Shown: one piece after another, positions 1,958 through 26,757 of the stretch
Layout: the number at the start of each line of letters is the position of its first letter
How positions within the stretch are numbered: position 1 is the stretch's first letter
Assembly (NCBI GenBank): GCA_035948415.1
Contig: DASZJD010000115.1
Coordinates: forward strand, 1 to 36,081
Source of the DNA: Acidimicrobiia bacterium
GTDB lineage: Bacteria > Actinomycetota > Acidimicrobiia > IMCC26256 > PALSA-555
Reading direction: 5' to 3'
Length of the DNA: 36,081 bases
Translations under genes and position numbers: made by a program
Notes under the pieces: generated by a model
What the model saw: the letters and a program-made list of their open reading frames with translations, nothing else
Told to the model about the DNA's origin: nothing
The model's database searches: none

Positions 1958-1996
1958 GGTGACACTCTGTCACCCAGGCGGTGACACAGTGTCACC
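1958..1996. promoter_or_regulatory. tandem palindromic operators between TetR and the catabolic operon
   Basis: Two 17-bp inverted repeats lie 22 bp apart centre to centre. The first is GGTGACACTCTGTCACC (1958-1974, one mismatch between arms). The second is GGTGACACAGTGTCACC (1980-1996, perfect arms around one central base). The spacing of two helical turns places both dimers on the same DNA face. They lie in the 97-bp gap between divergent starts at 1935 and 2033, the typical position for TetR operators. Confidence 0.8.
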
Positions 1997-2032
1997 TCCG
2001 GCGGTGGCTGGCAAGTGGATAGGGGAGCGACC

Positions 2033-3193
2033 ATGACCTACGCCGGCTCGAGGGAGATCCTGGACGCGGACAGCCACGTGATGGAGCTCGCCGGCTTCCT
2101 CGACGAGTTCATCGACCCGGCGCTTCGCCAACGGCTCCGACGTGAGGGGATCGAGGCCCTCGGATCTGTCCTCGATGACGCGGTGACGCGGTCGGACGCC
2201 CGGCGCGCAGACCCGGCGGCGGCCGCCGCCGCGGAGGAACGACTGCTGCGCGACAAGGGCTGGACCGCGATGGGCGCGTTCGACCCGAGCGAGCGAGGCC
2301 GCGTGCTGGACCTCTTCGGCTTCGGAGGCCAGCTGGTCTTCGCGACGTTCGCGACCGCGATGTTCACCGGCCGGGACCTCGAGCGCCTCTACGGTGGCAG
2401 TCGAGCCCAGAACCTGGCCATGGCCGACTTCTGCTCGACCGACGAACGGCTCTTCGCCGTCGGCTTCGTGCCGCTCGTCGATCCGCAGCGCGCGACGACA
2501 ACGGCTCGTGAGGCGATCGACGCCGGGTGCAAGGCGATCATGGTTCCCTCCACCGCGGCCGGCGACCGGGCGCCGACCCATCCCGACCTCGACCCGTTCT
2601 GGGGCCTGTTGAGCGAGGCGAACGTCCCCTTCGTGCTGCATGTGGGCGGCGGAGGGCGGCTGCTGGATCGCGCCTTCCACAACAACGAGATGCCCGTGCC
2701 CGATCATCTGGGCGGGGGCGAGAACGTCCGGTCGAAGGACTTTCTCGCGATTCCACACTCACCCGAGCTGTTCCTCGGGGTGCTGATCTTCGATGGCCTC
2801 TTCGACCGCTTCCCGTCTCTGCGCGGCGGGTGCATCGAGCAGGGCGCCGGGTGGGTCGTGTCGTGGCTGCGCCACCTTGACTACGGCCGGCGAGCGTTCA
2901 AGCGGACCGAGGCGCCGCTGCAGCGACTCGAGCTTGCGCCGTCCGAGTACGTGCGGCGGCACCTGAAGTTCACGCCGTACCCGGGCGAGCCGGTCGGTTG
3001 GATGATCGAGCAGGCGGGCGCCGAGTTGTTCATGTTCTCCACCGACTACCCGCACCCCGAGGGTGGTCGGGACCCGCTGGCGAAGTTCGAGGAGGCGCTC
3101 GCGGGGACGAGCGAGGCCGACCAGGCTCGCTTCTACTCGCACAACCTGGCCGAGCTGCTAGGCATGGAACATCAGCGAGTGCTCTCGACGTAG
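2033..3193 (+). CDS. amidohydrolase family protein (Amidohydrolase_2, COG2159)
   Basis: This 386-residue metal-dependent TIM-barrel hydrolase starts at ATG 2033, preceded by GGGGAG at 7 bases; an upstream in-frame GTG at 2015 has no such site. Key motifs are LDADSH at residues 10-15 near the N-terminus, His203 in VLHVGGGG, and Asp338 in STDYPHPEGG near the C-terminus, matching the strand-1, strand-5/6 and strand-8 ligand positions of the family. The family includes decarboxylases such as ACMSD and gamma-resorcylate decarboxylase as well as C-C and amide hydrolases, so the reaction cannot be fixed. The first HxH His is Asp here (DxDxH), as in all four paralogues of this window. It is first in the operon and directly downstream of the tandem operators. 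No signal peptide is seen. Confidence 0.85.
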   Translation: MTYAGSREILDADSHVMELAGFLDEFIDPALRQRLRREGIEALGSVLDDAVTRSDARRADPAAAAAAEERLLRDKGWTAMGAFDPSERGRVLDLFGFGGQLVFATFATAMFTGRDLERLYGGSRAQNLAMADFCSTDERLFAVGFVPLVDPQRATTTAREAIDAGCKAIMVPSTAAGDRAPTHPDLDPFWGLLSEANVPFVLHVGGGGRLLDRAFHNNEMPVPDHLGGGENVRSKDFLAIPHSPELFLGVLIFDGLFDRFPSLRGGCIEQGAGWVVSWLRHLDYGRRAFKRTEAPLQRLELAPSEYVRRHLKFTPYPGEPVGWMIEQAGAELFMFSTDYPHPEGGRDPLAKFEEALAGTSEADQARFYSHNLAELLGMEHQRVLST

Positions 3194-3233
3194 AGCTCGT
3201 CGGGGGCGGTCCGCAGCAGAAGGGGGGAAGCAG

Positions 3234-4937
3234 ATGCTCGGTCGGTCACAGAGCGGTGCTGATCGAGGCTCAGCGTCGCGAGCCATTCGGGCCGCGGCGG
3301 CCAGGTGGACTCGCCGCCCCGCGTCGCGCAGCGTCGTGGGGATCACCGTGCTGGCCGTGGGAGCCTTCGGTGGGCTCACCGCGGCCAGCGCCGCGAGCAA
3401 CGCCGGCGAGGGCCCGTTCCCGTGGAAGTACCCCGCGTCGGGGAACCTCCAGGCTGGCACGGGGACGACAGTGAACAAGACCGCCTGCACGGCGTCGACC
3501 CCGCAGTTCCCGTCGTCGTACGCCCTTCCCTGCGTGCCGCTGATCAAGGGCAGCAACGGTGGCGCGACCTCCAACGGCGTGACCGCCACGACGATCACGC
3601 TCGCCCAGCGCGAGTTCCCTTCGACCGCCAACACGGCGCAGGTCGCGGCCCAGGCCAAGAACGCCGGCGCGGCGCTGCCTCAGGTCACCGACCAGGTCCA
3701 GCAGGTCTTCTTGAACTACTTCAACTCCGTCTACAACCTCTACGGACGCCATGTCGTGCTCAAGAAGGTGACCGCGACCGGCGATGCCACCGCGGAATCG
3801 CTCGGCCAGGGCCAGGCCCAGGCCTGCGCGGATGCCGACACCATCGCCAACCAGATGCACGCGTTCGGCGAGGTCGGCTTCTTTCTCAACGACACGTTCG
3901 TGGGCGGGGGAACCGGACCGTTCTCGCTCTGCGCGTCCCAGCAGAAGCTCTTGGAGTTCGGCGGCAACCCATACTTCGACGAGGCGACCTTCCAGAGCCA
4001 GAACCCGTACGTCTGGAGCGAGACGATGGACTGCGATCGCATCGCGAACCAGACCGCGGAGGCCTTCGGCAAGATGCTGGCCGGGAAGCCGGCGATCTAC
4101 GCGGGTGACGCCAGTCTCAAGACCCACACCCGCAAGTTCGGCGTCTACGTGGCCAACGCGCCGCAGTACCTGCGCTGCAACGCCGGCGCGAGCAGCAGCT
4201 TCGGCCACCAGATCACCACCAAGTACCACGTGCCGGCGAGCGCGGTGAGCACGAGCTTCAAGTACGACCTCGACATCTCGACGTTCCAGCAATCGGCCCA
4301 GCAGGCCATGATCCAGTTCAAGGCCGCGGGGGTCACCACCGTCGTGCTCGCCTGCGACCCGTTCTCGGCCCTGGCCCTGACGAAGGAAGCCGTGGCGCAG
4401 AACTACCACCCCGAGTGGCTCCTCAACGGCGTCGCGCTCACGGACCTCGACCAGTCGGCCCAGACGTACGACCCGAGCGAGGTCACCGGTCACCTGTTCG
4501 GCCTGAGTGAGGCGTCACCGTCGGTGGAGACGACCGGTCCCAACTCGCTGGCCGGCAAGCTGTACCAGAAGCTCACCGGACACGAGATCCCGCCCGGCAC
4601 CGACGGGAACTACGGCCAGATGGTCCAGGTGTTCGATCAGTTGCAGGCCGCCGGGCCGAACCTCACGCCCGGCAACCTGGCGAGGGGCACGCACGCGCTG
4701 GCGACACTCGGTGCTCCACGGTTTGAGTACGGCCACTGGAACTTCCGGGACGGGCCCAACGGGCAACCGACCGGCGACCACACGCGGGTGAGCGACGCCC
4801 GCTTCGTGTACTGGGACGGCAACGCGACATCGCCGCTCAACGGCAAGCCGGGCACCTACGTCGAGGCGTTCTCCGGGAAGCGGTTCACCCTGGGTGAATG
4901 GCCCACCCAGCTCCCGCCCCTGTTCACCGGCCACTGA
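3234..4937 (+). CDS. ABC transporter substrate-binding protein (HAAT type, type I periplasmic fold)
   Basis: The product is 567 residues, longer than the usual 380-430. An Arg-rich N-region is followed by a hydrophobic stretch (about 33-50, VVGITVLAVGAFGGL) and a likely signal-peptidase site after ASA near residue 53. The mature part has features of the Leu/Ile/Val/amide binding family: VTATTITLAQREFP at the start, then a two-lobe body including VANAPQYLRCN and GVTTVVLACDPFSALAL. No lipobox Cys is seen. ATG 3234 has GGGGGG upstream at about 6 bases. It follows the amidohydrolase by 40 bases and lies upstream of the fused transporter, so it probably delivers ligand to it. The ligand is unknown; family members bind amino acids, amides, short-chain and aromatic acids. 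Confidence 0.85.
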   Translation: MLGRSQSGADRGSASRAIRAAAARWTRRPASRSVVGITVLAVGAFGGLTAASAASNAGEGPFPWKYPASGNLQAGTGTTVNKTACTASTPQFPSSYALPCVPLIKGSNGGATSNGVTATTITLAQREFPSTANTAQVAAQAKNAGAALPQVTDQVQQVFLNYFNSVYNLYGRHVVLKKVTATGDATAESLGQGQAQACADADTIANQMHAFGEVGFFLNDTFVGGGTGPFSLCASQQKLLEFGGNPYFDEATFQSQNPYVWSETMDCDRIANQTAEAFGKMLAGKPAIYAGDASLKTHTRKFGVYVANAPQYLRCNAGASSSFGHQITTKYHVPASAVSTSFKYDLDISTFQQSAQQAMIQFKAAGVTTVVLACDPFSALALTKEAVAQNYHPEWLLNGVALTDLDQSAQTYDPSEVTGHLFGLSEASPSVETTGPNSLAGKLYQKLTGHEIPPGTDGNYGQMVQVFDQLQAAGPNLTPGNLARGTHALATLGAPRFEYGHWNFRDGPNGQPTGDHTRVSDARFVYWDGNATSPLNGKPGTYVEAFSGKRFTLGEWPTQLPPLFTGH

Positions 4938-5755: not shown

Positions 5756-7369
5756 GTGACCGATCGCCCGGTGCCGCCCGGGCTGGCGGACTCGGCGCGC
5801 CAGGGACTCACGCTGTCGTTCTGGGCTGACCGGCAGCCGGACGCCCAGGCGATCATCGCCGACGCCGGCACCCGGACCTTCGGCGAGCTCAACGCCAGGG
5901 CGAACCAGCTCGCGCGCGCCCTGCGCCGGCGTGGCCTCAGCACGGGCGACGCCGTCGCGCTCCTGTGCCCGAACCGCCCGGAGTTCGTCGAGGCGGTCGC
6001 CGCGGGACAGCGAGCGGGCCTGCGCCTGACGACGGTCAACTGGCACCTCACCGCCGACGAGGCTGGCTACATCGTCGAGGACTGCGACGCCCGCGCCGTC
6101 ATTGCCGACCGGAGCCTCGGCGACGTCGCGGCGGAGGCCGCCCGCCGGGCTCGCGTGCAGTTCGGACTCGCCGTCGGTGGCGACATTCCGGGCTTCGACC
6201 CGTACGAGGAAGCCCTGGCTGGCGAGGACGTCGACGACATCGACGATCCCACCATTGGATCGACGATGCTCTACACGTCCGGGACGACGGGCCGCCCGAA
6301 GGGCGTGTACCGGCCGCCCGAGGCGGCGGCCGCGATCGCAAGCGCCGCCCTGGCGTCGAACCTCTTCGGGTACGAGCCGGGGCGCTCAGTTCACCTCTGC
6401 ACCGGGCCGCTGTATCACGCGGCGCCGCTCGCCTTCTCCCTGAGCATCCCCTTGGGGATGGGTGCCTCGGTCGTGTTGATGAACGGCTGGGAGGCCGAGG
6501 CGACCCTGGCGCTCGTTGACCAGCACCGCGTCACGCACACGCACCTGGTGCCCACGATGTTCCACCGGCTCCTGGCCCTCCCCGAGGACGTCCGAGCGAA
6601 GTACGACCTCCGCTCGCTGCGCCACGTCATGCACGGTGCGGCGCCGTGCCCGGTGCCGATCAAGCGCGCGTTCATCGAGTGGGTGGGGCCGATCGTCCAC
6701 GAGTACTACGCCGCCACCGAGGGCATCGGCACCTTCGTCGATTCGCCGACGTGGCTCGCCAAGCCGGGGACCGTCGGCCAGGTCCTCCCACCCGGGCAGA
6801 TCATCATCGGCGACGACTCGGGCCGGCCGTTGGGCCCGAACCAGGTCGGCCTGATCTACCTCAAGGCACCATCGTCGGCCCGCTTCACGTACCACAAGGC
6901 CCAGCGCGAGACTGCCGCGGCGTATCGCGGTGATCGCTTCACGCTGGGCGACGTCGGCTACATCGACGACGACGGCTACCTCTACCTCACGGATCGCAGC
7001 GCTGACCTCATCATCTCGGGCGGCGTCAACATCGCGCCGTCGGAGGTCGACGGCGTGCTGCTCCTGCACCCCGCCGTCGGCGACGTCGCCACCATCGGCC
7101 GGCCGAGCGAGGAGTGGGGCGAAGAGGTACTCGCCGTCGTCCAGGTCGCGCCAGGTATCCAGGCCTCGCCGACGCTGGCCGCCGAGCTCATCGAGTTCTG
7201 CCGCCGGCGGCTCGCGGGATACAAGTGCCCGCGGGCGATCGACTTCATCGACGCCGTCCCCCGTCACGACAGCGGGAAGCTGTACCGGCGGGTTCTGCGC
7301 GACCGGTATCGGTCTGCGGATGCCGCGCCAGGTGGGAGCGGAGTCGCCCCCGACGGGCCGACCGAATAG
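5756..7369 (+). CDS. AMP-forming acyl-CoA synthetase (ANL superfamily)
   Basis: This 537-residue enzyme activates a carboxylic acid with ATP to an acyl adenylate and then to the CoA thioester. The core motifs are present in order: the P-loop YTSGTTGRPKG from residue 173, EYYAATEG, the hinge region GDVGYIDDDGYLYLTDRSAD, the GGVNIAPSEVD motif near residue 420, and the catalytic Lys508 in HDSGKLYRR. Length and motif spellings resemble the FadD/cyclohexanecarboxylate or medium-chain ligase group, but specificity is unclear. GTG 5756 is taken as the start, 7 bases after the hydrolase stop; no strong ribosome site is visible, so translation may be coupled. Next to a HAAT transporter, it suggests the imported compound is an acid, or is hydrolysed to one. 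Confidence 0.9.
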   Translation: MTDRPVPPGLADSARQGLTLSFWADRQPDAQAIIADAGTRTFGELNARANQLARALRRRGLSTGDAVALLCPNRPEFVEAVAAGQRAGLRLTTVNWHLTADEAGYIVEDCDARAVIADRSLGDVAAEAARRARVQFGLAVGGDIPGFDPYEEALAGEDVDDIDDPTIGSTMLYTSGTTGRPKGVYRPPEAAAAIASAALASNLFGYEPGRSVHLCTGPLYHAAPLAFSLSIPLGMGASVVLMNGWEAEATLALVDQHRVTHTHLVPTMFHRLLALPEDVRAKYDLRSLRHVMHGAAPCPVPIKRAFIEWVGPIVHEYYAATEGIGTFVDSPTWLAKPGTVGQVLPPGQIIIGDDSGRPLGPNQVGLIYLKAPSSARFTYHKAQRETAAAYRGDRFTLGDVGYIDDDGYLYLTDRSADLIISGGVNIAPSEVDGVLLLHPAVGDVATIGRPSEEWGEEVLAVVQVAPGIQASPTLAAELIEFCRRRLAGYKCPRAIDFIDAVPRHDSGKLYRRVLRDRYRSADAAPGGSGVAPDGPTE

Positions 7370-7372
7370 CGC

Positions 7373-10300
7373 ATGGCGATCACGCGCGCCGACGCCGATG
7401 GGCCGGGTGTCTGCCCACCGCCGGTCCGACGTCGGGGCGGCCTGCCGACGGGCTTGCCCGCGACCGCCGGACGGGTGGCGGCATGGGTCGCCGGGACGCT
7501 GATCCTCTGGGCGGTCCTCGCCCGCGTGTTGGCGAAGGGCCTGCCGCCCGGGATCGTCGTGCTCGGCGTGATCTACGGGTCGCTGTACGCGCTGGTGGCG
7601 ATCGGGATCGTGCTCGTGTACCGGGCGAACCGCATCATCAACTTCGCCCAGGCTCAGCTGGGCGTCGTCGCGGCCATCCTCGCCATCGAGCTGCACGTCA
7701 CGTACGGCGTCAGCTACGTCCTCTCGTGCCTCGCCGGGATCGCTGCCGCGATCGTCCTCGGGGCCCTCATCAGCCTCCTGCCGCGGCACTTTCGCAAGAG
7801 CTCACGGCTGATCCTGACCGTCGCCACGATCGCGCTCGCGCAGACGCTCACCGGCCTGGCGACGATCGTTCCCCTCTGGTTCTGTGACCCGGCCAAGAAC
7901 CAAGCCTGTCTCACCGCGACGCGCAACCAGTCCTTCAACACGCCGCTCAACGCGCACTTCTCGATCTACCCCGTCATCTTCATGGGCAACGACGTCGTGG
8001 CGCTCGTCGGGGCGGCCGCCTTCGTCGTGGCGCTCACGTTGTTCCTGCGCTACTCGAAGTACGGCGTGGCCATCCGAGCCGCGGCAGACAACGGCGATCG
8101 GGCGATGCTGCTCGGTATTCCCGTGCCGCGCCTCGACACGATCGTGTGGTGCCTGGCCGCGGTTCTCTCGGCGGCGGCGGTCCTGTTGCGGGTGCCGGTC
8201 CTCGGGTTCGGCGGCTTCCAGACCGTGTCGGGTGGCGGCGACGAGCTGCTGCTCTTCACGCTGGCCGCGGCGGTCATCGGCCGGATGGAGAGCATGCCGC
8301 GCACCGCGGTGGCCGCCATCGCCATCGGCATCTATCAGTCCCTCGTCACCTGGACGTTCGCGAACACGACGTTCGTCGACGCCACGCTCGCCCTCGTCAT
8401 CGTCGTCGCCCTCCTCGCCCAGCGGGACGCCTACCGGCGCGTGAGCAACGCGCTCGGATCGACCTGGCGAGACATCGCCGCGGTTCGACCGATCCCCCGA
8501 CAGCTGGCCCAGCTCGGCGAGGTCCGCTGGTCGGGGCGGGTCATCAAGCTCGGGCTGCTCGCAGCCGCCGCGGCGCTCCCCGCGGTCCTCAGCGGCAGCC
8601 AGACCTACCTCGCGGCGCTGATCCTCATCTACGCCATCGTCGGGTTGTCGCTGCTCGTCCTCACTGGCTGGGCCGGGCAGATCTCCCTCGGCCAGTTCGC
8701 GCTGGCCGGTGTCGGCGGCGCCACGACGGCCGTGCTGTTCCAACGCCACGGTTGGGACTTCCTCCTGGCCCTCGCCGCGGGCGTGGTGGTTGGCGCGCTG
8801 ACCGCGCTCTTGATCGGCGTGCCCGCCCTCCGGATCCAGGGTCCGTTCCTCGCCGTCACGACACTGGCCTTCGCGTTGGGCGTCTCCACCTACTTCCTCA
8901 ATCCCGCCAACCTGCCATGGTTCGTGACCGTCCAGATCAGCCGGCCCACGATCCTCGGCGCCAACGTGCTCGACGCCGACTGGCAGATCTACTACCTGTG
9001 CCTGGTCTCGTTCCTGGTGGTGATGCTCGCCGTCCGGTCGCTTCGACGGAGCCGAATCGGTCGAGCCCTGATCGCAACGCGCGACAACGAGGCGGCAACG
9101 AGCGCCGCCGCGCTCAACACGACCAGGATGAAGCTGACCGCCTTCCTGATCTCCGGTGGGATCGCCGGGTTCGCCGGTGCCATCTTCGTCGTGCACCAAC
9201 GGGGTGTGAACAGCGGCTCGTTCAACGCCGACATCAGCATCGCCTTGTTCCTGATGGTGGTGGTCGGCGGGGCGGGGTCGCTGCCGGGGGTGGTCATCGG
9301 CGCCATCTACGTCTGGGGCACGCAGTACTACCTCCACGGCGGGTTCAGCCTGGTCGCGAGCGGGCTCGGGATCCTGATCCTGCTCATCGTCCTCCCCGAA
9401 GGGCTCGGCGGTCTGCTGTACCAGCTCCGCGACCGGCTGCTGCGCGAGCTCGCGCGACGCAAGAACATCCCGCTCTCCGGTGCCGTCGTGCCGGCGGCGG
9501 AGCCGAGCGGTCAGGACCGCGGCGCGACCGCCATCCTCGAGGACGCCCAACGGTCGAGCCCGCGGGACCCGAGCCGAACCGGGCCTCGCCAACCGGTCGG
9601 GCGCTTGACGGGCGGCCCCACACCCGACGGGAGTCAGCCCGGTGCCACCGCCGACGGCTCGGCCGACCCGGCGGCGAGCCGCGGGCCGCGGAGCACCGGG
9701 CGCGCGCTCCTCCCGCTGATCGTCGTGACCGGGCTCGCCGCGATGGCCCAGCTCAACGCCCTCGCGCTCGTCCTGCTCCTGCCGGACCTGCGGGGCAGCT
9801 TCCACTCGGGGCTGTTCTTCGTGTCGACCATCGCCGTGGTCGGCATCCAGGTCGGGCTACTGCTCGACGTCGGGATCGGCGGGCTCGCCAACCGGGTCCG
9901 CCGCATGCGACTGCTGTGCGCGGGGATGGGGCTCGTCGCCGTCTGCTCCGTCCTGGTCGTCGTCGCCGGGCGCGCGCAGAGCGTCGTGCTGCTCGACGTC
10001 GCCACCGCCGCCGTCGCCGTCGCCGGCTGGGCGTTCACCTCGACGCAGAACAGCCTGCTCGCCGACCACTACCCGCCGGAGGTCCGTCCCCGCGTTCACT
10101 TCATCCAACGGGCCGGGATCGCGGGCGCGCTCGCCCTCGGCCCCGCGCTCGTCGGCGCCCTCGAGATCTTCTACCGCTGGCAGGTCCCCTTCCTGGTCCT
10201 CGCCGTCCCGACGCTCGTGCTTGTTGCGCTCGGTCTGCTGGTGCGAGGCCCGACCAGTCGCGAGTGGGCCGGAGCGCCCCGAGCCGATGCCGAGGAACCG

Positions 10301-12559
10301 CCCTCGTTCGCCGAGGCGATCCGGGTGCTGTTCGCCAAGCCGTCGATCCGACGCCTCTACTACTCCCTCCCATTCTTGGCGGTGCTGATCGTGGGCATGC
10401 GCCACTTCGCGGACCTGCTGTACCGCAACGTCTTCCATTTGAGCGCCGGCGGTCGAGCGCTGGTCTTTGCTCTGGTCGAGCCCAGCACCTTCGTGGGCCT
10501 CGTCGTGGGCCTCATCGTCGTGCCGCGGCTCATGGCGAGGGACCTCGGGCGGGCGGTGCGGCTCGTGTCGTACGCGGCCGTCGGCGCCGCGGCCTGCCTC
10601 GCGGCGATGGCGTTGGCGCCGAACGTGGCGTGGGCGGCCGGCGCGCAGTTCACCTACGGGCTTGCGGCCGCCTGGTTGCTCGCATCCATCTATACGGCGG
10701 TGTCCGTCGCGGCACCGCCGCGCATGGTCCCCCTCGCCTTCGCGTTGACCTCGTTGTGGTTCGGCTTCGGCGTCGGGGTCATCGCGCCGGCGGGGTTGTC
10801 ACTGATCTCGACCGTGAACGGGCTCGCCGGGTACCGAGGCGGGTTCTACGTCTACGTCGCCCTGCTGCTCATCGGGTCTCGGGTCCTGGCCTCGGCGACC
10901 AGGTCGCTCAACCGTGACGTCGAGCAGCTGCGGATCACCGCGCTGGCCGACGCGGAGATCCTTCGCAGCCGTGCCGCCGGGCGGGCCCAGCTGCTCATGG
11001 TGCGGTCCCTCGACGCGGGCTACGACGGCCTCCAAGTGCTCTTCGGCGTCGACCTCGACGTCGACGACGGGGAGCTCGTCGCGATCCTCGGCACGAACGG
11101 AGCCGGCAAGTCCACCCTCCTCCGGGCCATCTCGGGGCTGAACACAGCCACCGCCGGGGAGGTGATCTTCGACGGTCGCGACATCACGACCGTCGACGCC
11201 GCTCGGGTCGTGAGCCGGGGCATCGTCCAGGTGCCGGGTGGACGGGGCATCTTCGCCGGGCTGTCGGTGGCGGAGAACCTGCGGGCCGCGGCCTGGCAGC
11301 ACAACGGCGATGGCCACGACCGAGAGGACGTCACCGAGGTGGCGCTGGGGCGCTTCCCGGTGCTCCGGGACCGCTGGGACGTCCCGGCCGGCAGTCTCTC
11401 CGGCGGGGAGCAGCAGATGCTGAGCCTGGCGCTCGCGTTCCTCGCACGACCACGGCTGCTCATGATCGACGAGCTGTCGCTCGGTCTCGCGCCCGTCGTG
11501 ATCGACATGCTGATCGACGTCGTGGATGCGATCCACGAGAGCGGCACGACGGTGATCCTCGTCGAGCAGTCCGTCAACCTCGCGTTGCGGCTTGCGGGCC
11601 GCGCCGTCTTCATGGAGCGGGGCCAGGTGCGCTTCACGGGCGCGACGTCCGAGCTCGCCGATCGCGACGATCTGATCCGTGCAGTGTTCCTGGACGGCGC
11701 GCGCCCGCCCGCCCCCTCCGACGAGCCGGCCGGGCCGACTCGGGTCGATGCGGGCCCGCGCCGCGCCGCGGCGAGCACCGTTCCCGACGGGGTGGTGCTC
11801 GCCTCGAGCGGACTGCGACGGCGGTTCGGCGGCGTGACGGCCGTCGACGGCGTCAGCCTCGAGCTGCACGCCGGCGAGATCCTCGGGCTCGTCGGCCCGA
11901 ACGGCGCCGGCAAGACGACCCTCTTCGAGTTGCTCTCCGGTCACTTGGCCCCCGATCGCGGCCGCGTGCGCATGTTCGGCGCCGACGTCACCGAGTGGCC
12001 CGCGCATCGGCGGGCGGCGGCGGGGTTGGGACGCTCGTTCCAGTCAGCCCGGCTCTGGCCCGGCCTGACCGTTGGTGAGTCGCTCGCGCTCGCGGCCTCG
12101 AAGCGGCTGCACTCGCCGGGGGTGCTGGCCTCCTTGCTCGGCCTGCCAACGGTGCGAAGAGCAGAACGTCAAGCCGAGCGAGCGGCCGACGAGGTCATCG
12201 AGATGTTCGGGCTCGGCGACTATCGTGACTACCTGACCGCCGACCTCTCGACCGGCACGCGCCGCCTGGTCGAGCTGGCGGTGCTGGTCGCGATGCGTCC
12301 GTCCATCCTCCTCCTGGACGAGCCGTCGGCCGGGACCGCGCAGAGCGAGGCGCTCGCTCTCGTGCCCGTCCTGCGCGACACCACAGCATGGCTCAGATGC
12401 AGCACCATCGTGGTCGAACACGACATCGCGCTCGTGCGTGCGTTGGCCGATCGCGTCGCGGCGATGGACACCGGCTCCATCGTCGCCGTCGGCTCTCCGG
12501 ACGACGTGTTCCGCCATCCCCGGGTGGTGGAGGCGTACCTCGGTGCCACGCCGCACTGA
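7373..12559 (+). CDS. five-part transporter fusion: LivH-LivM-MFS-LivF-LivG
   Basis: One uninterrupted 1728-residue frame. Residues about 60-390 are a LivH-type permease (LYALVAIGIVLVYRANRIIN, INFAQ). Residues about 393-700 are a LivM-type permease (LTGWAGQISLGQFALAGVGG near 431). A Pro/Gly/Ser-rich linker of about 75 residues follows. Residues about 778-1176 hold roughly 12 hydrophobic segments with MFS character. Residues 1206-1445 are a LivF ATPase: Walker A GTNGAGKST (1240), signature LSGGEQQ (1342), Walker B LLMIDE. Residues 1478-1728 are a LivG ATPase: GPNGAGKTT (1508), LSTGTRR (1625), LLLDEPSAG. All parts of an ABC importer except the binding protein are in one chain, plus an extra carrier-like domain. 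ATG 7373 lies 3 bases after the ligase stop. An in-frame TTG at 9605 could allow a separate MFS-ATPase product. Expected in the inner membrane. Confidence 0.85.
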   Translation: MAITRADADGPGVCPPPVRRRGGLPTGLPATAGRVAAWVAGTLILWAVLARVLAKGLPPGIVVLGVIYGSLYALVAIGIVLVYRANRIINFAQAQLGVVAAILAIELHVTYGVSYVLSCLAGIAAAIVLGALISLLPRHFRKSSRLILTVATIALAQTLTGLATIVPLWFCDPAKNQACLTATRNQSFNTPLNAHFSIYPVIFMGNDVVALVGAAAFVVALTLFLRYSKYGVAIRAAADNGDRAMLLGIPVPRLDTIVWCLAAVLSAAAVLLRVPVLGFGGFQTVSGGGDELLLFTLAAAVIGRMESMPRTAVAAIAIGIYQSLVTWTFANTTFVDATLALVIVVALLAQRDAYRRVSNALGSTWRDIAAVRPIPRQLAQLGEVRWSGRVIKLGLLAAAAALPAVLSGSQTYLAALILIYAIVGLSLLVLTGWAGQISLGQFALAGVGGATTAVLFQRHGWDFLLALAAGVVVGALTALLIGVPALRIQGPFLAVTTLAFALGVSTYFLNPANLPWFVTVQISRPTILGANVLDADWQIYYLCLVSFLVVMLAVRSLRRSRIGRALIATRDNEAATSAAALNTTRMKLTAFLISGGIAGFAGAIFVVHQRGVNSGSFNADISIALFLMVVVGGAGSLPGVVIGAIYVWGTQYYLHGGFSLVASGLGILILLIVLPEGLGGLLYQLRDRLLRELARRKNIPLSGAVVPAAEPSGQDRGATAILEDAQRSSPRDPSRTGPRQPVGRLTGGPTPDGSQPGATADGSADPAASRGPRSTGRALLPLIVVTGLAAMAQLNALALVLLLPDLRGSFHSGLFFVSTIAVVGIQVGLLLDVGIGGLANRVRRMRLLCAGMGLVAVCSVLVVVAGRAQSVVLLDVATAAVAVAGWAFTSTQNSLLADHYPPEVRPRVHFIQRAGIAGALALGPALVGALEIFYRWQVPFLVLAVPTLVLVALGLLVRGPTSREWAGAPRADAEEPPSFAEAIRVLFAKPSIRRLYYSLPFLAVLIVGMRHFADLLYRNVFHLSAGGRALVFALVEPSTFVGLVVGLIVVPRLMARDLGRAVRLVSYAAVGAAACLAAMALAPNVAWAAGAQFTYGLAAAWLLASIYTAVSVAAPPRMVPLAFALTSLWFGFGVGVIAPAGLSLISTVNGLAGYRGGFYVYVALLLIGSRVLASATRSLNRDVEQLRITALADAEILRSRAAGRAQLLMVRSLDAGYDGLQVLFGVDLDVDDGELVAILGTNGAGKSTLLRAISGLNTATAGEVIFDGRDITTVDAARVVSRGIVQVPGGRGIFAGLSVAENLRAAAWQHNGDGHDREDVTEVALGRFPVLRDRWDVPAGSLSGGEQQMLSLALAFLARPRLLMIDELSLGLAPVVIDMLIDVVDAIHESGTTVILVEQSVNLALRLAGRAVFMERGQVRFTGATSELADRDDLIRAVFLDGARPPAPSDEPAGPTRVDAGPRRAAASTVPDGVVLASSGLRRRFGGVTAVDGVSLELHAGEILGLVGPNGAGKTTLFELLSGHLAPDRGRVRMFGADVTEWPAHRRAAAGLGRSFQSARLWPGLTVGESLALAASKRLHSPGVLASLLGLPTVRRAERQAERAADEVIEMFGLGDYRDYLTADLSTGTRRLVELAVLVAMRPSILLLDEPSAGTAQSEALALVPVLRDTTAWLRCSTIVVEHDIALVRALADRVAAMDTGSIVAVGSPDDVFRHPRVVEAYLGATPH

Positions 12560-13841
12560 CCGGCCTGGTCGCCCGAAGCCGTCGTCGCCGCGGGCTCGCG
12601 GCACGGCCCCGGCGACGAGCTGCCACGCACTCGTCGCGATCGGGCTCGTCGCCGTGCTGCTGGTCGCGTGCAGTCCTCGGCCGCAGTCCGGCGTCGCGAC
12701 CGCGACCGTCCGCGTCAGGGGCAACTGCGATACCTCACGGGTCGTCGAGGTCGGCGCCACCCTCCCGCTGTCGGGAACCTCGGCCGCGCTCGCACGGGAG
12801 TACCTCACGGGTCTCGAGCTCGCCGTCGATGACGTCAACAAGGCTGGCGGTGTCCTTGGCGACAACCGGTGTCTCGAGCTCCTCTACAAGAACGACCGGG
12901 GCGATTCGGCCACCGCGACGCAGGCCATCTCCGACCTGGTCGACGACGAGTCGGTGACGTATGTCGTGGGTCCGTTGCTCCCCGGGCAGATCATGGCCGC
13001 CGGAGCGACGCTGGCACGTCTCGGGATCCCAACCGGCGGCCTCTCGGGGATTGATGCCACGTTCCGCCCGGCGCACTATCCCTGGATGTTCCCGATTGCC
13101 GCCTCGAACGCCACGGTGGCCACGAAGATGGCGCAGTACGCCGCCGCGCAGTCTTGGTCGCGCGTGGGAATCGTCTCCGCTCCCGGTGCGGTCGGCGACC
13201 AGAGCGTCGCGACCTTCACCCGCGCCGCGCGGCGACTCGGGGTGTCTGTCGTGGGTCGCGTCGCCGTCTCGCCACGCCAGGACGCGAGCCGCGAAGTCGA
13301 AACGCTGCGCAGCACCGGCCCGCAAGGCGTGGTCATCCTCAATGACGCCGTCGCCATCACCCGAGTGCTCTCAGCTCGGGCGCAGCTCGGTTGGCGCGCA
13401 CCGGTCGTTACCACCGCCGCGGCCACCGATGCGGCCGTCGTCGACGCGGTGAAACCGCCGGCGCTGAACGAGGTCGCCGCCGTCGTGCCCCAGCCGCTCG
13501 TCCTCACGCCGGATGTCTCGGTCCCCGCGGTTCGGAGCTTCCGAGACGTCGTGCGACGTCACCTCCACGCGGGGCGCATCGACGGCTCGATCGTCGCCTT
13601 CGCTCAGGCCTACGACGCCGTCATCATGCTGGCTTCAACCGCCAACAGCATCCACTCGACGAGTGCGACCAGCCTCCGCACGTACCTCGAGAACGCGGGC
13701 TTCCAGGGGCTGCTGGCCTCCTACTCGTACACCACCTCTTCCCATGCGGGGATCGCTGGCGACCAGCTCGCGGTGGTCCCGGTCGATTCGCTGTCGAACG
13801 GCCTCTTCGCACAGCCAGGTCCGGCCCCCTCGACCAGCTGA
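12543..13841 (+). CDS. HAAT-type substrate-binding lipoprotein
   Basis: The product is 432 residues. GTG 12543 is chosen because GGAGG (12529-12533) precedes it by 9 bases; it overlaps the fusion gene by 17 bases, implying coupled translation. An N-terminal signal ends in a lipobox VALLxVAC-like LLVAC with Cys43, so the mature protein should be lipid-anchored outside the membrane. The mature domain starts VVEVGATLPLSGTSAALARE and continues GLELAVDDVNKAGGVLG, typical of type I periplasmic binding proteins for branched-chain amino acids and related ligands. It is the last gene of the operon and the second binding protein beside the fused transporter; the two may widen its ligand range. Confidence 0.88.
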   Translation: MPRRTDRPGRPKPSSPRARGTAPATSCHALVAIGLVAVLLVACSPRPQSGVATATVRVRGNCDTSRVVEVGATLPLSGTSAALAREYLTGLELAVDDVNKAGGVLGDNRCLELLYKNDRGDSATATQAISDLVDDESVTYVVGPLLPGQIMAAGATLARLGIPTGGLSGIDATFRPAHYPWMFPIAASNATVATKMAQYAAAQSWSRVGIVSAPGAVGDQSVATFTRAARRLGVSVVGRVAVSPRQDASREVETLRSTGPQGVVILNDAVAITRVLSARAQLGWRAPVVTTAAATDAAVVDAVKPPALNEVAAVVPQPLVLTPDVSVPAVRSFRDVVRRHLHAGRIDGSIVAFAQAYDAVIMLASTANSIHSTSATSLRTYLENAGFQGLLASYSYTTSSHAGIAGDQLAVVPVDSLSNGLFAQPGPAPSTS

Positions 13842-17052: not shown

Positions 17053-17416
17053 CGAGACAACGCTGCTGCCGCTCGGTGTCGCCGACACCCTTAGTGCCGC
17101 CGTAGCTGCCCTCCCGCCGCGAAGCTCTCCAGGTACGTTCGCTCGAGGACGGGGCTGTCAACCGGAGTTGTCCCGATGGCGTCGACGGGGTTGTGGGACT
17201 GGGGACTGCTCGTGAGTCTGGCCGTCCTCCGACCGTTCAAGTGTGCGCCAAGTCCGTTGCATGAGCCGACGCTGCCGCGCAGCTGGGTATCCATCGTGCC
17301 GACGGGCCGGGCGGGCAGGGCGATGCGAGGATGCTGCTTGGGCCGCGGTCTCGCGCGGTGGCTGGACGCGGCTGGACTGGAAGGACGGGTCGGTGACCCG
17401 CGGACGGGGGGACGTG
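17053..17416. other. 364-base gap
   Basis: No gene can be supported. Open frames here lack start sites or family features and overlap one another. A minus-strand stretch (17294-17091) is open but reads as noise. The region may hold the promoter for the hydrolase at 17417; I see no clear -10/-35 pair. A CCAAGTCCGT string near 17250 recurs near 14240, too short to interpret. Confidence 0.4.
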
Positions 17417-18964
17417 ATGAGCATTGGCCGCGAGGGTGACGAGCTGAGCGCGCGACGGCGTGTGAGCGTGAGGTTCCGTAGTCGGTCCCGCCCGACGGCG
17501 GGCGTGGCGTTGCTGGCGCTGTGCGCGGCGTTGCTCACGGCGGCCTTCACGGGCTCCGGCCCGCCGCGGTCGATGGCCGGCGCGGCCCGGAGCGTGAGCG
17601 GCCCGGCGGCGGACGTGTCGACGGAGCTGACCGGCGGGCAGGGGGTGTTCATCGGCTCCCCGATCCCGGTGGACCTGGCCCGGGCCGCGTACGTGCAGCA
17701 CGAGTACGCGGCGGCGGGCACGGCGACCTCCTACTTGGCCAGCGGCCCGCTGGGTCGCGACGGCCGCTGGGCGCTCGCACCGGACGCGCGGGCCGCATAC
17801 CGGACGCGGGTGCTGGTGCGTCGGCCGGCGAGCCGGGCCCGGTTCAGCGGCACGGTCGTCGTCGAGTGGCTGAACGTGAGTGGGGGCGTGGACGCCGACC
17901 CGGACTGGGCGACGCTGCACGAGGAGATCCTGCGGCGCGGCGACGCGTGGGTGGGGGTGTCGGCGCAGCGGATCGGCGTGGTGGGCGGGCCGGTGCTGGT
18001 GACGGTGAACGTCCCGGGCGCGGAGGCGGCGGGGAAGGGGCTGGTGGCGATCGACCCCGCCCGGTACGGAACGCTGGCGCACCCGGGGGACGGCTTCTCG
18101 TTTGACATCTTCACGCAGGTGGCGCGGGCGCTCCGCTCGGGCGGCGCGCTGGGTGGCTTGCATCCGAAGCGGCTGATCGCGGCGGGGGAGTCGCAGTCGG
18201 CTTTCGCGATGGTCACGTACTACGACGGGGTGCAGCCGCTGACGCACGCCTTCGACGGCTTCTTCGTGCACAGCCGGGGCGCCATCGGGCTGCCCCTGGT
18301 CGCCGCGGGGCAGTACGCGGACATCGCGCACGCGATCAGCGGCACGCCGTCGATCTTCCGTACCGACCAGGCGGCGCCGGTGATGGACGTGCAGACGGAG
18401 ACGGACGTGGCGAGCATCCTGGACTCGTACGCGGCCCGCCAGCCGGACAGCGCCCGCTTCCGGCTCTGGGAGGTGCCGGGCACGGCGCATGCGGACGCGC
18501 ACCTGCTGGGCGCGAACGTCGCCTACCTCGATTGCGGCGTGCCGGTGAACAACGGGCCGCTGCACGTGGTCGCGAAGGCAGCGCTGCACGCCCTCGAGAC
18601 GTGGCTCAGCACGGGGGCGGCGCCGGTGCACGCAGCCCGCATCGATGTCGTGGCGGGCGCGAGGCCGCAGATCCAGCGGACCGCGGACGGGATCGCGCTG
18701 GGCGGCGTGCGGACGCCGCCGGTGGACGTCCCGGTCGCGGCGCTGTCAGGGAACCCGGGGCCGAACCCCTCCACGATCTGCCTGCTGCTCGGCTCCACCA
18801 CCCCGTTCCCGGCGTCGCGCATCGCGCAGCTGTACCCGTCCCGCGCCCCCTACCTGCGCCGGTTCACGGCGGACGCGGGCGCGGCGATCCGGGCGGGTTT
18901 CGTGCTGCGCGCCGACCGCTCGGCGCTGCTCGGGTTCGCGGACCCGTCGCGGGTGGGGCCGTGA
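17417..18964 (+). CDS. exported alpha/beta hydrolase domain protein (Abhydrolase_10 type)
   Basis: The product is 515 residues from ATG 17417, which has a run of G (GGGGGG) 4-6 bases upstream. An Arg-rich head and a hydrophobic core (GVALLALCAALLTAAF, about 29-44) indicate export. The mature part has VVVEWLNVSGGVDADPDW, WVGVSAQ, the nucleophile elbow AAGESQSA with Ser259, and LWEVPGTAHADAH with His358 as likely catalytic His; TETDV is a candidate acid. These features are shared with the paralogue at 26758 and belong to the alpha/beta hydrolase domain family PF20091, whose substrates are mostly unknown. Its third codon positions are almost all G or C, more extreme than in its neighbours. An external esterase role is inferred. 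Confidence 0.82.
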   Translation: MSIGREGDELSARRRVSVRFRSRSRPTAGVALLALCAALLTAAFTGSGPPRSMAGAARSVSGPAADVSTELTGGQGVFIGSPIPVDLARAAYVQHEYAAAGTATSYLASGPLGRDGRWALAPDARAAYRTRVLVRRPASRARFSGTVVVEWLNVSGGVDADPDWATLHEEILRRGDAWVGVSAQRIGVVGGPVLVTVNVPGAEAAGKGLVAIDPARYGTLAHPGDGFSFDIFTQVARALRSGGALGGLHPKRLIAAGESQSAFAMVTYYDGVQPLTHAFDGFFVHSRGAIGLPLVAAGQYADIAHAISGTPSIFRTDQAAPVMDVQTETDVASILDSYAARQPDSARFRLWEVPGTAHADAHLLGANVAYLDCGVPVNNGPLHVVAKAALHALETWLSTGAAPVHAARIDVVAGARPQIQRTADGIALGGVRTPPVDVPVAALSGNPGPNPSTICLLLGSTTPFPASRIAQLYPSRAPYLRRFTADAGAAIRAGFVLRADRSALLGFADPSRVGP

Positions 18965-23165: not shown

Positions 23166-24455
23166 ATGTCACGTTTCCGGGTGAGGGTCGGGCGCTGGTT
23201 GGCGCTGCTCACGACGATCTCGCTCGCCGGCGCGATCGGCGCTTCGGGGGCGGGCGCACAGAATCCGCCGGTCAACCAGCCGGGCGTGACCAGCACCGAG
23301 ATTCGGGTCGGGGGAGTGGCGACGGTCACGCAGGACCCGACGGGAAACACGCTTGGGACAGCCTTCGACGGCACGAGCGCGTACTTCAGCTACATCAACT
23401 CGATGGGCGGGGTGTGTGGTCGCAAGCTCGTTCTCGCTTCGAAACGTGACGACGCACTGTCGAACAACCGGGAGCAGGTGCAGGGGCTGGTCACCAGCGA
23501 CAACGTGTTCGCAGTGCTTCCGGTGGCCGTCGACCTGTTCACCGGCGCGGATCTGCTCGTCAGCCAGAAGATCCCGACTTTTGGTTGGGACATCCAGGCT
23601 GAGTGGGGGTCTGAGGCCAACCGGCCGGGGCCGCCGAACCTGTTCGGTGCAGCAGGGTCGTTCATCAACTTCACGTCGCCGGGGCCGACCGGCTTCCCGG
23701 ATCTTTGGTTGGCGCAGAAGCTGGGCAAGAAGCGCATCGGTGCGATCGCCTACGCCGTGCCCCAGTCCTCGGGGGCCGCGGACGTCATTGAGGCGACCGC
23801 CAAGCAGTTCCCGAACGCCGCAAAGGTCGTGTTCAAGGACACGAGTGTCCCGTTCGGCGGCGTGGATTACAGCGCGCAGGTTGCCAAGATGGTGCAGAAC
23901 AAGGTCGACCTGGTGGTCCCGACCCTCGACGCGAACGGCGCGTTCCTCCTCGGACGCGAGATGAAGAAGCAGGGGCTCAACGTCCCGATGATCCTGCCGA
24001 ACGCGTACAACCAGGCGCGCATCCAGAAGAACGCGGACGTCGCCAATGGGAACTACGTGTTCACGCTCTTCGCGCCGTTCGAGAGCACGCCCAAGCCCGC
24101 GGGGTTGCAGCTCTATCAGAAGTGGATCAAGCGGAGTGGGGGTACCGCGAGCGAGAACTCCGTCTATGGGTGGCTGAACGCGGATCTCTTCGTGAGGGGT
24201 CTGAAAGCAGCAGGATGCGACTTCACCCGCCAGAAGGTCGTCGACGCCGTCAACCAGATGACGAACTACACCGCCGACGGTTTCATCGCCCCCGTCGACT
24301 GGACCAAGGCCCACCAGCAGGCTTCCGGCTGTTTCACTTGGGTGAAGATCGTGAACAGCAAGTTCAAGCCAATGTTCGGTCAGCCCGGGAAGCCGTTCCT
24401 GTGCATCCCGCCGGGCGCGACATCGATTCCAGCCAACCCCCCGGCGGTCCCGTAG
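23166..24455 (+). CDS. ABC transporter substrate-binding protein (HAAT type)
   Basis: The product is 429 residues. ATG 23166 has GGGGGG at about 7 bases. A signal peptide (basic head, LALLTTISLAGAIGASGAGA) probably ends after residue 31. The mature protein begins VTSTEIRVGGVATVTQDPTG, with YFSYINSMGGVCGRKL and ASKRDDALSNNREQVQGLV, the usual pattern for Leu/Ile/Val-type binding proteins, and later FGGVDYSAQVAKMVQNKVDL. No lipobox is seen. The permease at 24506 follows after 50 bases, so the pair forms an uptake operon. The ligand cannot be read from sequence; family members in catabolic clusters bind aromatic or short-chain acids as well as amino acids. Confidence 0.9.
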   Translation: MSRFRVRVGRWLALLTTISLAGAIGASGAGAQNPPVNQPGVTSTEIRVGGVATVTQDPTGNTLGTAFDGTSAYFSYINSMGGVCGRKLVLASKRDDALSNNREQVQGLVTSDNVFAVLPVAVDLFTGADLLVSQKIPTFGWDIQAEWGSEANRPGPPNLFGAAGSFINFTSPGPTGFPDLWLAQKLGKKRIGAIAYAVPQSSGAADVIEATAKQFPNAAKVVFKDTSVPFGGVDYSAQVAKMVQNKVDLVVPTLDANGAFLLGREMKKQGLNVPMILPNAYNQARIQKNADVANGNYVFTLFAPFESTPKPAGLQLYQKWIKRSGGTASENSVYGWLNADLFVRGLKAAGCDFTRQKVVDAVNQMTNYTADGFIAPVDWTKAHQQASGCFTWVKIVNSKFKPMFGQPGKPFLCIPPGATSIPANPPAVP

Positions 24456-24505
24456 CGGCCGGTTGGTGTTGGAACGGCGACTAGGCCGGTCGGGATACCG
24501 GTGAC

Positions 24506-26506
24506 GTGACCGATCTCGTCGGTTACGTCATCCGTGGCATCCCGTTCGGGTGCGTCTTCGCGCTGATGGCGGTGGGCCTCACCCTGACGTACAAGACGTC
24601 GGGTGTGTTCAACCTGGCGTTCGCGGCGCAGGCGTACGCGTCCGCCGCGGTCTTCTACCAGCTCAACGTCAACGAAGGGTGGGCGCTCATCCCGGCGTTT
24701 GTCGTCGCGGTAGTTGTCGTGGCGCCGCTCATCGGCTTTGTCTTGGACCGGTTCCTCTTCCGGTACCTGCGCACTGCCCCCACCGTCGCCAAGCTCGCCG
24801 TGTCGTTGGGCTTGCTGGTGGCGATACCAGGGATCGTGCAGCTCTGGTTCGGCTCCGGGGCGGCGTTCGCGCCGCCCGTGCTCTGGACCGAGCAGTTCGC
24901 CATCTACCACTTCGGCGGCTACGCCATCACCGGCGCCGAGGCAGTCACTGTTGTCGCGACCGCAGCGTCGGTCGTCGGCCTGACGGTTTTGTTCCGCTAT
25001 TCGAACATCGGGTTACAGATGCGAGCGGTGGTCGAGAGCCCGCGGATGACCGAGCTGGCCGGTATCAACGCGGATCGGGTGGGGGCCCTCGCGTGGGTGA
25101 TGTCGAGCCTGTTCGCGGGGCTGGCGGGCGTCCTGCTGGCACCGTTGTTCGGGGAACTGCTCCCCGCCAACTTCACGGTGCTGCTCGTCGCGGCCATCGC
25201 GGCGGCGGCCTTCGGTCGGCTCACGAGCATCCCGCTGGTCCTCGCCGGTGGGCTGCTGCTCGGCATCCTCCAAGGCATCCTCGCCGGTTATCTGCCCACC
25301 GGCAGCATCCTGGCGCAGGGTCTGCGACCGTCGCTGCCGTTCGTCATGCTGTTCCTGCTCCTGTTGTTCTTGCCCGGGCTGCAAAAGAGGGCGGAGATCA
25401 CCGACCCGCTGTCGGGGGTTGATCCGCCCCCGCCAGGACTGGCCGCCGCGCAGCGCAGCCGCGGTCTGACGACGGCGACGCATGCGTTCGGCGTGACGGT
25501 GGTGGCGATCGGCCTGGTGATCGCCTGTTTCGGGTTGAGCGACTTCTGGCTCCTGCTCGTAACCAAGGCGGTGGTGTTCGGCATCATCTTCTTGTCAATC
25601 ACGGTGATCACCGGCATGGCGGGCCAGATCTCGTTGTGCCAGGCGACCTTCGCCGCCGTGGGTGGGTTCACCGTCGCGCAGTTCGTCGACCGATGGGACC
25701 TCCCGGTGCTGCTCACCGTGCTCGCGGGGACAGTCCTGGCGGCGATCGTGGGCGGGTTACTGGCGATCCCCGTGCTTCGTCTCAGCGGTATCTACCTGGC
25801 GCTGGCCACGCTGGCGTTCGCGATGATGTTCGACAGCGTCTTCGTCCCGTTGGACTGGGTCAGCGGCGGCCTCTTCCCGCTGAAGGTGCCCCGCCCCGGG
25901 TTCCTGGTCGGAGGCCGAGCGTTCTTCCTCTTCAGCGTCGTCGTGCTCGGCGTGGTCGGGACCCTCGTGATCCTCGTACGCCGAGGCACGACGGGGAAGT
26001 ACCTGGACGCGCTCCGCGGGAGCGAGACCGCCGCCGCCGCGATCGGCATCAACGCGACGCGATCACGAATCATCGCGTTCGCGCTCTCCGCCGGCATCGC
26101 CGGGCTCGGCGGCGGCTTGCTCGCGACGTTCGACGGCCAGGCGAACTACGCCGCGAACTTCACCCCATTCTTCGGGCTGTTCTGGCTCGTGATCGTCGTG
26201 ACCCTCGGAGTCCGAACTGTCGAAGGCGCCATCCAAGCCGGCTTGGCGCTCGCACTGTTCCCCGAGCTCCTGAACACGCTCGGCATCTCACCCGAGTACC
26301 AGTTCATCCTCTTCGGGCTCGGTGCACTCACCTTCGCCAGGCACCCCGAAGGGCTCCTCGAGTTCGCCAAGCGAAGACAACTCGACGCGATCCAGCGGAT
26401 GATCGACCGACGCCAACGCGGTGGCCGAGCCCCGGATCTCCCGCCCGGGGCAGCGGAGCTGCCCGCAGTGCCCGCGCCCGTCCCGACGACGCCCGACGTT
26501 GCGTAG
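24506..26506 (+). CDS. fused HAAT permease LivH-LivM
   Basis: A 666-residue integral membrane protein. Residues 1-300 are the LivH part (GIPFGCVFALMAVGLTLTYK, FNLAFAAQAYASAAVFYQ). Residues about 320-620 are the LivM part (ITGMAGQISLCQATFAAVGG near 370, and RIIAFALSAGIAGLGGGLLA). The C-terminus is a charged, Pro-rich tail. GTG 24506 is used; GTG 24500 is possible, and the ribosome site is weak. Together with the binding protein it forms an importer lacking ATPases, since the next genes are hydrolases. The only LivF/LivG-type ATPases in the window are inside the 1728-residue fusion. It either borrows ATPases or uses subunits encoded elsewhere. Confidence 0.92.
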   Translation: MTDLVGYVIRGIPFGCVFALMAVGLTLTYKTSGVFNLAFAAQAYASAAVFYQLNVNEGWALIPAFVVAVVVVAPLIGFVLDRFLFRYLRTAPTVAKLAVSLGLLVAIPGIVQLWFGSGAAFAPPVLWTEQFAIYHFGGYAITGAEAVTVVATAASVVGLTVLFRYSNIGLQMRAVVESPRMTELAGINADRVGALAWVMSSLFAGLAGVLLAPLFGELLPANFTVLLVAAIAAAAFGRLTSIPLVLAGGLLLGILQGILAGYLPTGSILAQGLRPSLPFVMLFLLLLFLPGLQKRAEITDPLSGVDPPPPGLAAAQRSRGLTTATHAFGVTVVAIGLVIACFGLSDFWLLLVTKAVVFGIIFLSITVITGMAGQISLCQATFAAVGGFTVAQFVDRWDLPVLLTVLAGTVLAAIVGGLLAIPVLRLSGIYLALATLAFAMMFDSVFVPLDWVSGGLFPLKVPRPGFLVGGRAFFLFSVVVLGVVGTLVILVRRGTTGKYLDALRGSETAAAAIGINATRSRIIAFALSAGIAGLGGGLLATFDGQANYAANFTPFFGLFWLVIVVTLGVRTVEGAIQAGLALALFPELLNTLGISPEYQFILFGLGALTFARHPEGLLEFAKRRQLDAIQRMIDRRQRGGRAPDLPPGAAELPAVPAPVPTTPDVA

Positions 26507-26520
26507 TCCGAACTGGTCTC

Positions 26521-26666
26521 GCGAAGGGAGGTGCGGGAGATGATTTCTCCCTCATAGCGCCGACCAACAGCGCGTCCATGTCGGTTGCGGTGAATCGAGG
26601 ACCGGTCCGACCCAGCTCTGGTATGCCCGCATCCCACTCACCAACTTTGGCGAGAGCCAGAAGTAG
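26521..26666 (+). pseudogene. Asp-box gene 3' scar, second copy
   Basis: Only the tail of the Asp-box gene remains. One frame gives GDDFSLIA; after a shift near 26560 a second gives VHVGCGESRTGPTQLWYA and LTNFGESQK, TAG 26664-26666. The frame break is at nearly the same place as in the copy at 20573 but in the other direction: four bases between the GCG and GAC codons there, two here. It lies between the permease stop and the hydrolase at 26758. Confidence 0.78.
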
Positions 26667-26702
26667 GCGGCCACGAGCTCCGGCGGCGGTTCCGGAACTG
26701 AG
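26521..26702 (+). repeat. dispersed repeat, copy B
   Basis: This is the partner of 20942-21120. The stretch 26581-26666 matches 21001-21086 at 77 of 86 bases by hand alignment. The 5' boundary is near 26521, just after the permease stop; the 3' boundary is less sharp, near 26702. Confidence 0.8.
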
Positions 26703-26757
26703 CCCGCCTTGGACGGGCTGGCGCGCGACACCATCGGCTCGACAACAGGGGGCGGTC

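Follow-up and report, generated by a model that had tools for sequence, protein, structure and literature searches.

Secondary transporters of the MFS type and primary importers of the ABC type are regarded as distinct machines. In the draft genome of an Acidimicrobiia bacterium, one open reading frame appears to place both in a single chain: positions 7373–12559 (+ strand) of the 36,081-nt stretch of contig DASZJD010000115.1 that was analyzed here (the window) open with ATG, run for 1728 aa without an internal stop and encode, in this order, LivH, LivM, an MFS domain, LivF and LivG. A first-pass annotation, made from the sequence alone, read this frame as a single-chain, five-part importer of the HAAT type. 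We ask whether the chain is an established architecture, a recent joining of two genes or an artifact of the draft, and what an MFS domain might do inside an ABC importer.

The reading that we prefer, at a probability of roughly 80%, is that of a two-gene HAAT importer that carries an MFS domain fused in front of its LivF-LivG ATPases, in which a recent frame change (or an assembly error) has joined the two genes, and in which the MFS domain would serve as a tether. The features on which this reading draws are as follows.

3234–4937, + strand: divergent type-I substrate-binding protein (here “SBPx”), near-constant partner of the family (fold and synteny; no Pfam match)
5756–7369, + strand: acyl-CoA synthetase (Pfam, NCBIfam), its end 3 nt upstream of the importer ATG
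7373–9547, + strand: LivH-LivM permease fusion, conserved part of the first gene (Pfam BPD_transp_2 twice; 82–83% identity to the congener, locus L046; dN/dS ~0.12)
9548–9605, + strand: LivHM C-terminal tail with a frame-0 codon signature (codon scores); the frame change most likely lies in or just before it
9605–9608, + strand: TTGA, probable relic of an NTGA stop/start overlap (NTGA in 54/63 relatives; 89 nt to the MFS domain, as in the congener)
9605–12559, + strand: MFS-LivF-LivG fusion gene, conserved family unit (50-member alignment; MFS domain in 70/395 class genomes; AF2 mean pLDDT 83)
9707–10924, + strand: MFS domain, Spinster/ACS-like (MFS_1; 12 TM-length helices; a family member matches HnSpns 6e8j, E 7e-18)
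10863–10983, + strand: helical stalk from TM12 to LivF (continuous helix, residues 372–457 of the MFS-LivF-LivG alignment; AF2)
10982–11692, + strand: LivF-type ATPase (NCBIfam, congener comparison, alignment motifs)
11786–12550, + strand: LivG-type ATPase (Pfam, NCBIfam, congener comparison, alignment motifs)
12438–13841, + strand: second substrate-binding protein, a Peripla_BP_6 lipoprotein (Pfam; 51% identity in the congener; lipobox-like VLLVACS)

Domains and motifs of the long frame

The domain content proposed by the first-pass annotation is borne out by profile searches. Pfam returns BPD_transp_2 twice, MFS_1 (residues 789–1136, 71 bits), ABC_tran twice and a C-terminal BCA_ABC_TP_C, and the best NCBIfam matches are the LivF-like UrtE on the LivF side (residues 1208–1430) and LivG on the LivG side (residues 1475–1725). 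The sequence hallmarks of a HAAT importer are all present, i.e., permease domains of both LivH and LivM type, LivF and LivG ATPases that each carry Walker A, signature and Walker B motifs (intact, as annotated, with an H-loop besides), and a cognate type-I substrate-binding protein nearby, identified at 12438–13841 by its Peripla_BP_6 match and at 3234–4937 by fold and synteny. The 12-segment MFS-like domain holds up as well, by its MFS_1 score and by the 12 helices of its model.

The annotation had also singled out LivF for reading LLMIDELS at Walker B. The reading is correct, and since D-E-L is invariant across the 50-member alignment it is a feature of the family; we rejected a damaged Walker B. 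The LivG signature, LSTG, is likewise a family feature. All domains are under purifying selection relative to the congener (dN/dS 0.12 for LivHM, 0.29 for MFS, 0.17 for LivF and 0.22 for LivG), about twofold looser in the MFS domain. Compared with canonical HAAT systems (LivFGHM, TC 3.A.1.4; importers of branched-chain amino acids and aromatic acids), with which this locus shares homologous LivH, LivM, LivF and LivG parts and adjoining binding proteins, the differences lie in the fusion of H with M and of F with G, the MFS domain on LivF, a binding protein that Pfam fails to recognize, and the fixed ELS of the LivF D-loop and LSTG of LivG.

The junction between LivHM and the MFS domain

We searched for the MFS domain in 100 relatives, whose membership of one class was taken from kinship labels, in 395 class genomes and in 396 phylum genomes, and found carriers in 44, 70 (about a sixth) and 16 of them, respectively. 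Flanking DNA was compared for ~70 loci, 63 of which were scorable (LivHM and MFS domain both present and adjacent). At every one of the 63, the congener’s included, LivHM and MFS-LivF-LivG are two genes, and an in-frame junction was seen at none; at 54 of them, a 4-nt NTGA (31 GTGA, 22 ATGA, 1 TTGA) joins the LivHM stop to an overlapping start of the second gene. We therefore reject the five-domain chain as a fixed architecture. The annotation’s single-chain importer runs into counterevidence that had been named in advance, separate genes in relatives at this very junction. The nearest genome, the congener G001 (Actinomycetota bacterium isolate palsa_555, contig PLJD01000043.1), has ATGA at the junction, and its MFS domain begins 89 nt after the TGA.

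Missing stops on their own make weak evidence for a fusion, as several relatives have stop-free frames of 1000–2900 nt upstream of the MFS start that encode none. Frames of 1700–1966 aa around the MFS domain in nine other genomes were considered as further full fusions and discarded, LivHM lying in a different frame in each. At one locus (L153), a 1018-aa frame with the MFS domain and no second Pfam domain is probably such an upstream-open frame.

In the window, traces of the two-gene arrangement are still legible. Within the linker, the fused frame offers a single start codon, TTG at 9605; the base that follows is A, which yields TTGA at 9605–9608. This TGA is offset from LivHM by one frame, and again 89 nt separate it from the MFS domain (9695 minus 9606). 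Up to and including DRGATAILED (~9515–9544), the fused frame aligns with the LivHM of the congener. Beyond this point, codons 9548–9605 suit frame 0 (score +0.6) better than the fused frame (−6.9). Read in its true frame, the corresponding tail of 53 relatives comes to 2.3 ± 3.0 and goes no lower than −5.8, so that the window tail fits the fused frame worse than the tail of any of these relatives fits its own—though the tail is a low-complexity stretch of 19 codons and 3 of the 53 show a comparable advantage for a wrong frame. The fit of the tail to frame 0 rather than to the fused frame points to a net shift by one frame within, or immediately upstream of, the ~20 codons that end LivHM, which most likely were shaped as a frame-0 tail. 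TTG 9605, which the annotation took to leave room for two products, is indeed present and proves to be the pivotal feature; the most plausible reading makes it a vestige of the second gene’s start, homologous in position to the congener’s ATG. The stretch that the annotation had flagged as fragile, 9480–9710, is indeed where the slip maps.

The five-part chain thus most likely stems from a recent frame change in these codons or from an assembly error. That the error lies in the data, and that the organism has the ordinary two genes, is a reading to which we give somewhat less than an even chance: the assembly is a draft of 133 contigs, the fusion is unique among relatives, and the NTGA stop/start signal persists out of frame. 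The surrounding sequence speaks against it. The junction stretch contains no homopolymer of more than 3, and we found no intragenic frameshift in 129.5 kb of homology-covered DNA from the same genome, which places the 95% upper bound on error-type frameshifts at ~1 per 43 kb; general sequence quality is therefore good, and a high frameshift-error rate is not seen. Of the candidate frameshifts, that in L127 proved on inspection to be an ATGA gene boundary, those in L136 and L139 look like LivF/LivG boundaries, and that at 24469 of the window looks like a shadow frame. The clean 129.5 kb and the short homopolymers slightly favor a real, tolerated mutation.

If the mutation is real, its product may work as a one-chain importer, i.e., the five-part chain may be a genuine functional polypeptide, which we likewise hold tentatively, at somewhat under even odds. 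The frame is open, motifs are kept in all domains, no other frameshift turned up in the ~130 kb, and the change sits in a poorly conserved tail and so would be tolerated. Covalent joining is, moreover, compatible with function in this very genome, which holds a true one-chain HAAT importer lacking the MFS domain: a paralogue on contig C9 (34976–38815; L045:14977–18816) that encodes LivH-LivM-LivF-LivG in one frame of ~1279 aa from GTG 34976. This single-chain form is kept in the congener, in G003, in G012 and twice in G040 (L144–L148), six loci in all, each adjoining the same type of binding protein as the MFS-LivF-LivG loci; it belongs to the same subfamily and has the same domain order as the window importer, from which it differs by the missing MFS domain and in that its four ABC domains are genuinely one chain at all six loci. 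Against a working five-part chain stand the lack of any relative with such a frame and the tail codons, which still carry the old frame and so give no hint that selection has acted on the fused one for long.

The MFS-LivF-LivG family and its binding protein

The fusion of the MFS domain to the ATPases is another matter. MFS, LivF and LivG share one open frame at 58 loci besides the window (the set used for the tree), in independent genomes, and the protein aligns over 50 members; the MFS-LivF-LivG fusion is real, conserved and common to many related bacteria, in keeping with the annotation’s suggestion that MFS-ATPase fusions are also annotated in actinobacteria. In the AF2 model, TM12 continues into the long stalk that leads to the two ATPases, and the ATPase pair matches the tandem-ATPase chain DppD of Mycobacterium tuberculosis (8wdb_D, TM-score 0.71 by target). 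DppD/OppD chains also carry two ABC ATPases in a similar modeled arrangement, but they belong to a peptide importer family without an MFS domain.

In a LivF tree, genes that join MFS to LivF only branch deepest, the single-chain LivHMFG forms fall near the base, and 57 of the 58 MFS-LivF-LivG genes group with the window in one weakly supported clade. This branching order suggests, with moderate support, that MFS was attached to LivF at an early stage and that the LivHMFG form has since shed it. Two-part MFS-LivF fusions, with LivHM and LivG separate, occur at four loci of deepest or near-basal position (L080, L081, L149 and L151; the MFS part is shown for L080, L081 and L151). At a further locus (L063, G057:C12), the MFS-LivF-LivG gene is spread over several frames, which suggests a pseudogene or an error-rich assembly. 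We found no sign of plasmid or phage carriage of the unit. A literature search for fusions of MFS domains with ABC ATPases, in which coverage of subscription journals was thin, returned nothing; as far as this incomplete coverage reaches, MFS-LivF-LivG with its Pfam-unrecognized binding protein is an undescribed variant of the HAAT importer.

That binding protein (3234–4937) has a relative that matches Peripla_BP_6, and homologues accompany MFS and LivF, within the same stretch, at 47 of the 53 loci that have both. Its AF2 model (pLDDT 86) has solute-binding proteins as its top PDB folds, the best being 4eyg and 4ey3 from Rhodopseudomonas palustris, solved with aromatic acids; the protein could seed a new family. 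The second binding-protein gene, at 12438–13841, probably starts downstream of 12559. Together with the fold matches, the acyl-CoA synthetase, hydrolase and amidohydrolase encoded upstream make an organic or aromatic acid a plausible substrate. The congener’s nearest match to the acyl-CoA synthetase, among the stretches compared, lies elsewhere in its genome. Three Abhydrolase_10 (PF20091) proteins are also encoded in the window (17243–18964, 25636–28278 and 28378–29766), as are further Amidohydro_2 enzymes and a second pair of binding protein and LivHM (23166–26506), and this 36-kb contig probably represents a catabolic island that houses several HAAT systems.

In the ancestral, family-wide form that we propose for this actinobacterial HAAT subfamily, LivHM and MFS-LivF-LivG are a translationally coupled gene pair accompanied by the divergent binding protein. 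One LivHM chain and one MFS-LivF-LivG chain would between them contribute each of the four ABC domains once, and a single MFS domain would sit tethered beside these. By analogy with known HAAT importers, the binding protein would deliver substrate, LivHM would translocate it and LivF/LivG would hydrolyze ATP, perhaps to take up amino acids or related acids. In the window genome, the frame change would have yielded the 1728-aa joined frame, as a tolerated mutation or an assembly error.

What the MFS domain may do

The nearest solved structure to the MFS domain of a family member is the bacterial Spinster transporter HnSpns, and NCBIfam matches of the domain include ACS and aromatic-acid symporters. 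HnSpns uses Asp41 and Glu129 as protonation switches, with Arg42 and Arg122 as their partners, and Asp87 is its motif-A residue (PMC9440201). Asp41, Arg42, Arg122 and Asp87 align with D51, R52, R134 and D96 of the family, kept in 46, 40, 46 and 47 of 50 members; the counterpart of Glu129 is not conserved. Most members thus share with Spinster/ACS-type transporters not only the 12 helices but the TM1 Asp-Arg pair, motif A (ADRxxR) and the TM4 Arg, and differ in being fused to two ABC ATPases. The genus of the window, on the contrary, has mostly lost these residues: the window has N51, A52, T134 and N96, and the congener has D, G, V and N. Of the 27 conserved charged positions, each of the two has departed at 12, more than any other sequence in the alignment.

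Of the two roles that the annotation had offered for the MFS domain, a second transport route or a scaffold, the first is disfavored in this genus and the second tentatively favored. With most of the proton-coupling residues gone in two species, proton-coupled transport has probably been lost and the domain is probably a membrane tether or structural partner, no longer a proton-driven transporter. It may be active as a transporter elsewhere in the family. Weighing somewhat against a tether, the LivHMFG paralogues would work without any MFS domain, so that a tether is not strictly needed, and a transporter that uses another coupling residue is possible. A working second transporter for the substrate of the binding protein, adding proton-driven uptake or exchange to the ATP route, would agree with the Spinster-type protonation and motif-A residues of most members, with the resemblance to ACS/aromatic-acid symporter profiles and with a locus (L052, G040:C22) at which a lone family MFS gene adjoins the same binding protein (1958–3403 and 12–1739) and no ABC parts are found in the 15.9-kb contig—a single case, from a contaminated draft. 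Given the charged residues lost in window and congener, we consider such a transporter unlikely. Similarly doubtful is the bolder proposal that a proton-coupled MFS transporter was covalently built into an ATPase pair, with a single novel type of binding protein feeding the two and with ATP- and proton-driven transport physically coupled, and that it became a non-transporting tether in this genus.

In a narrow sense, the window illustrates how one frame slip can make two coupled genes resemble a spectacular fusion. More broadly, a widespread and conserved fusion of an MFS domain with LivF-LivG, served by a dedicated binding protein, would make it possible to ask directly whether a single complex couples the two energy sources or, alternatively, whether a scaffold can be made out of an MFS fold; related species with intact and degenerate MFS domains, alongside an MFS-free single-chain paralogue, provide a ready-made comparison.
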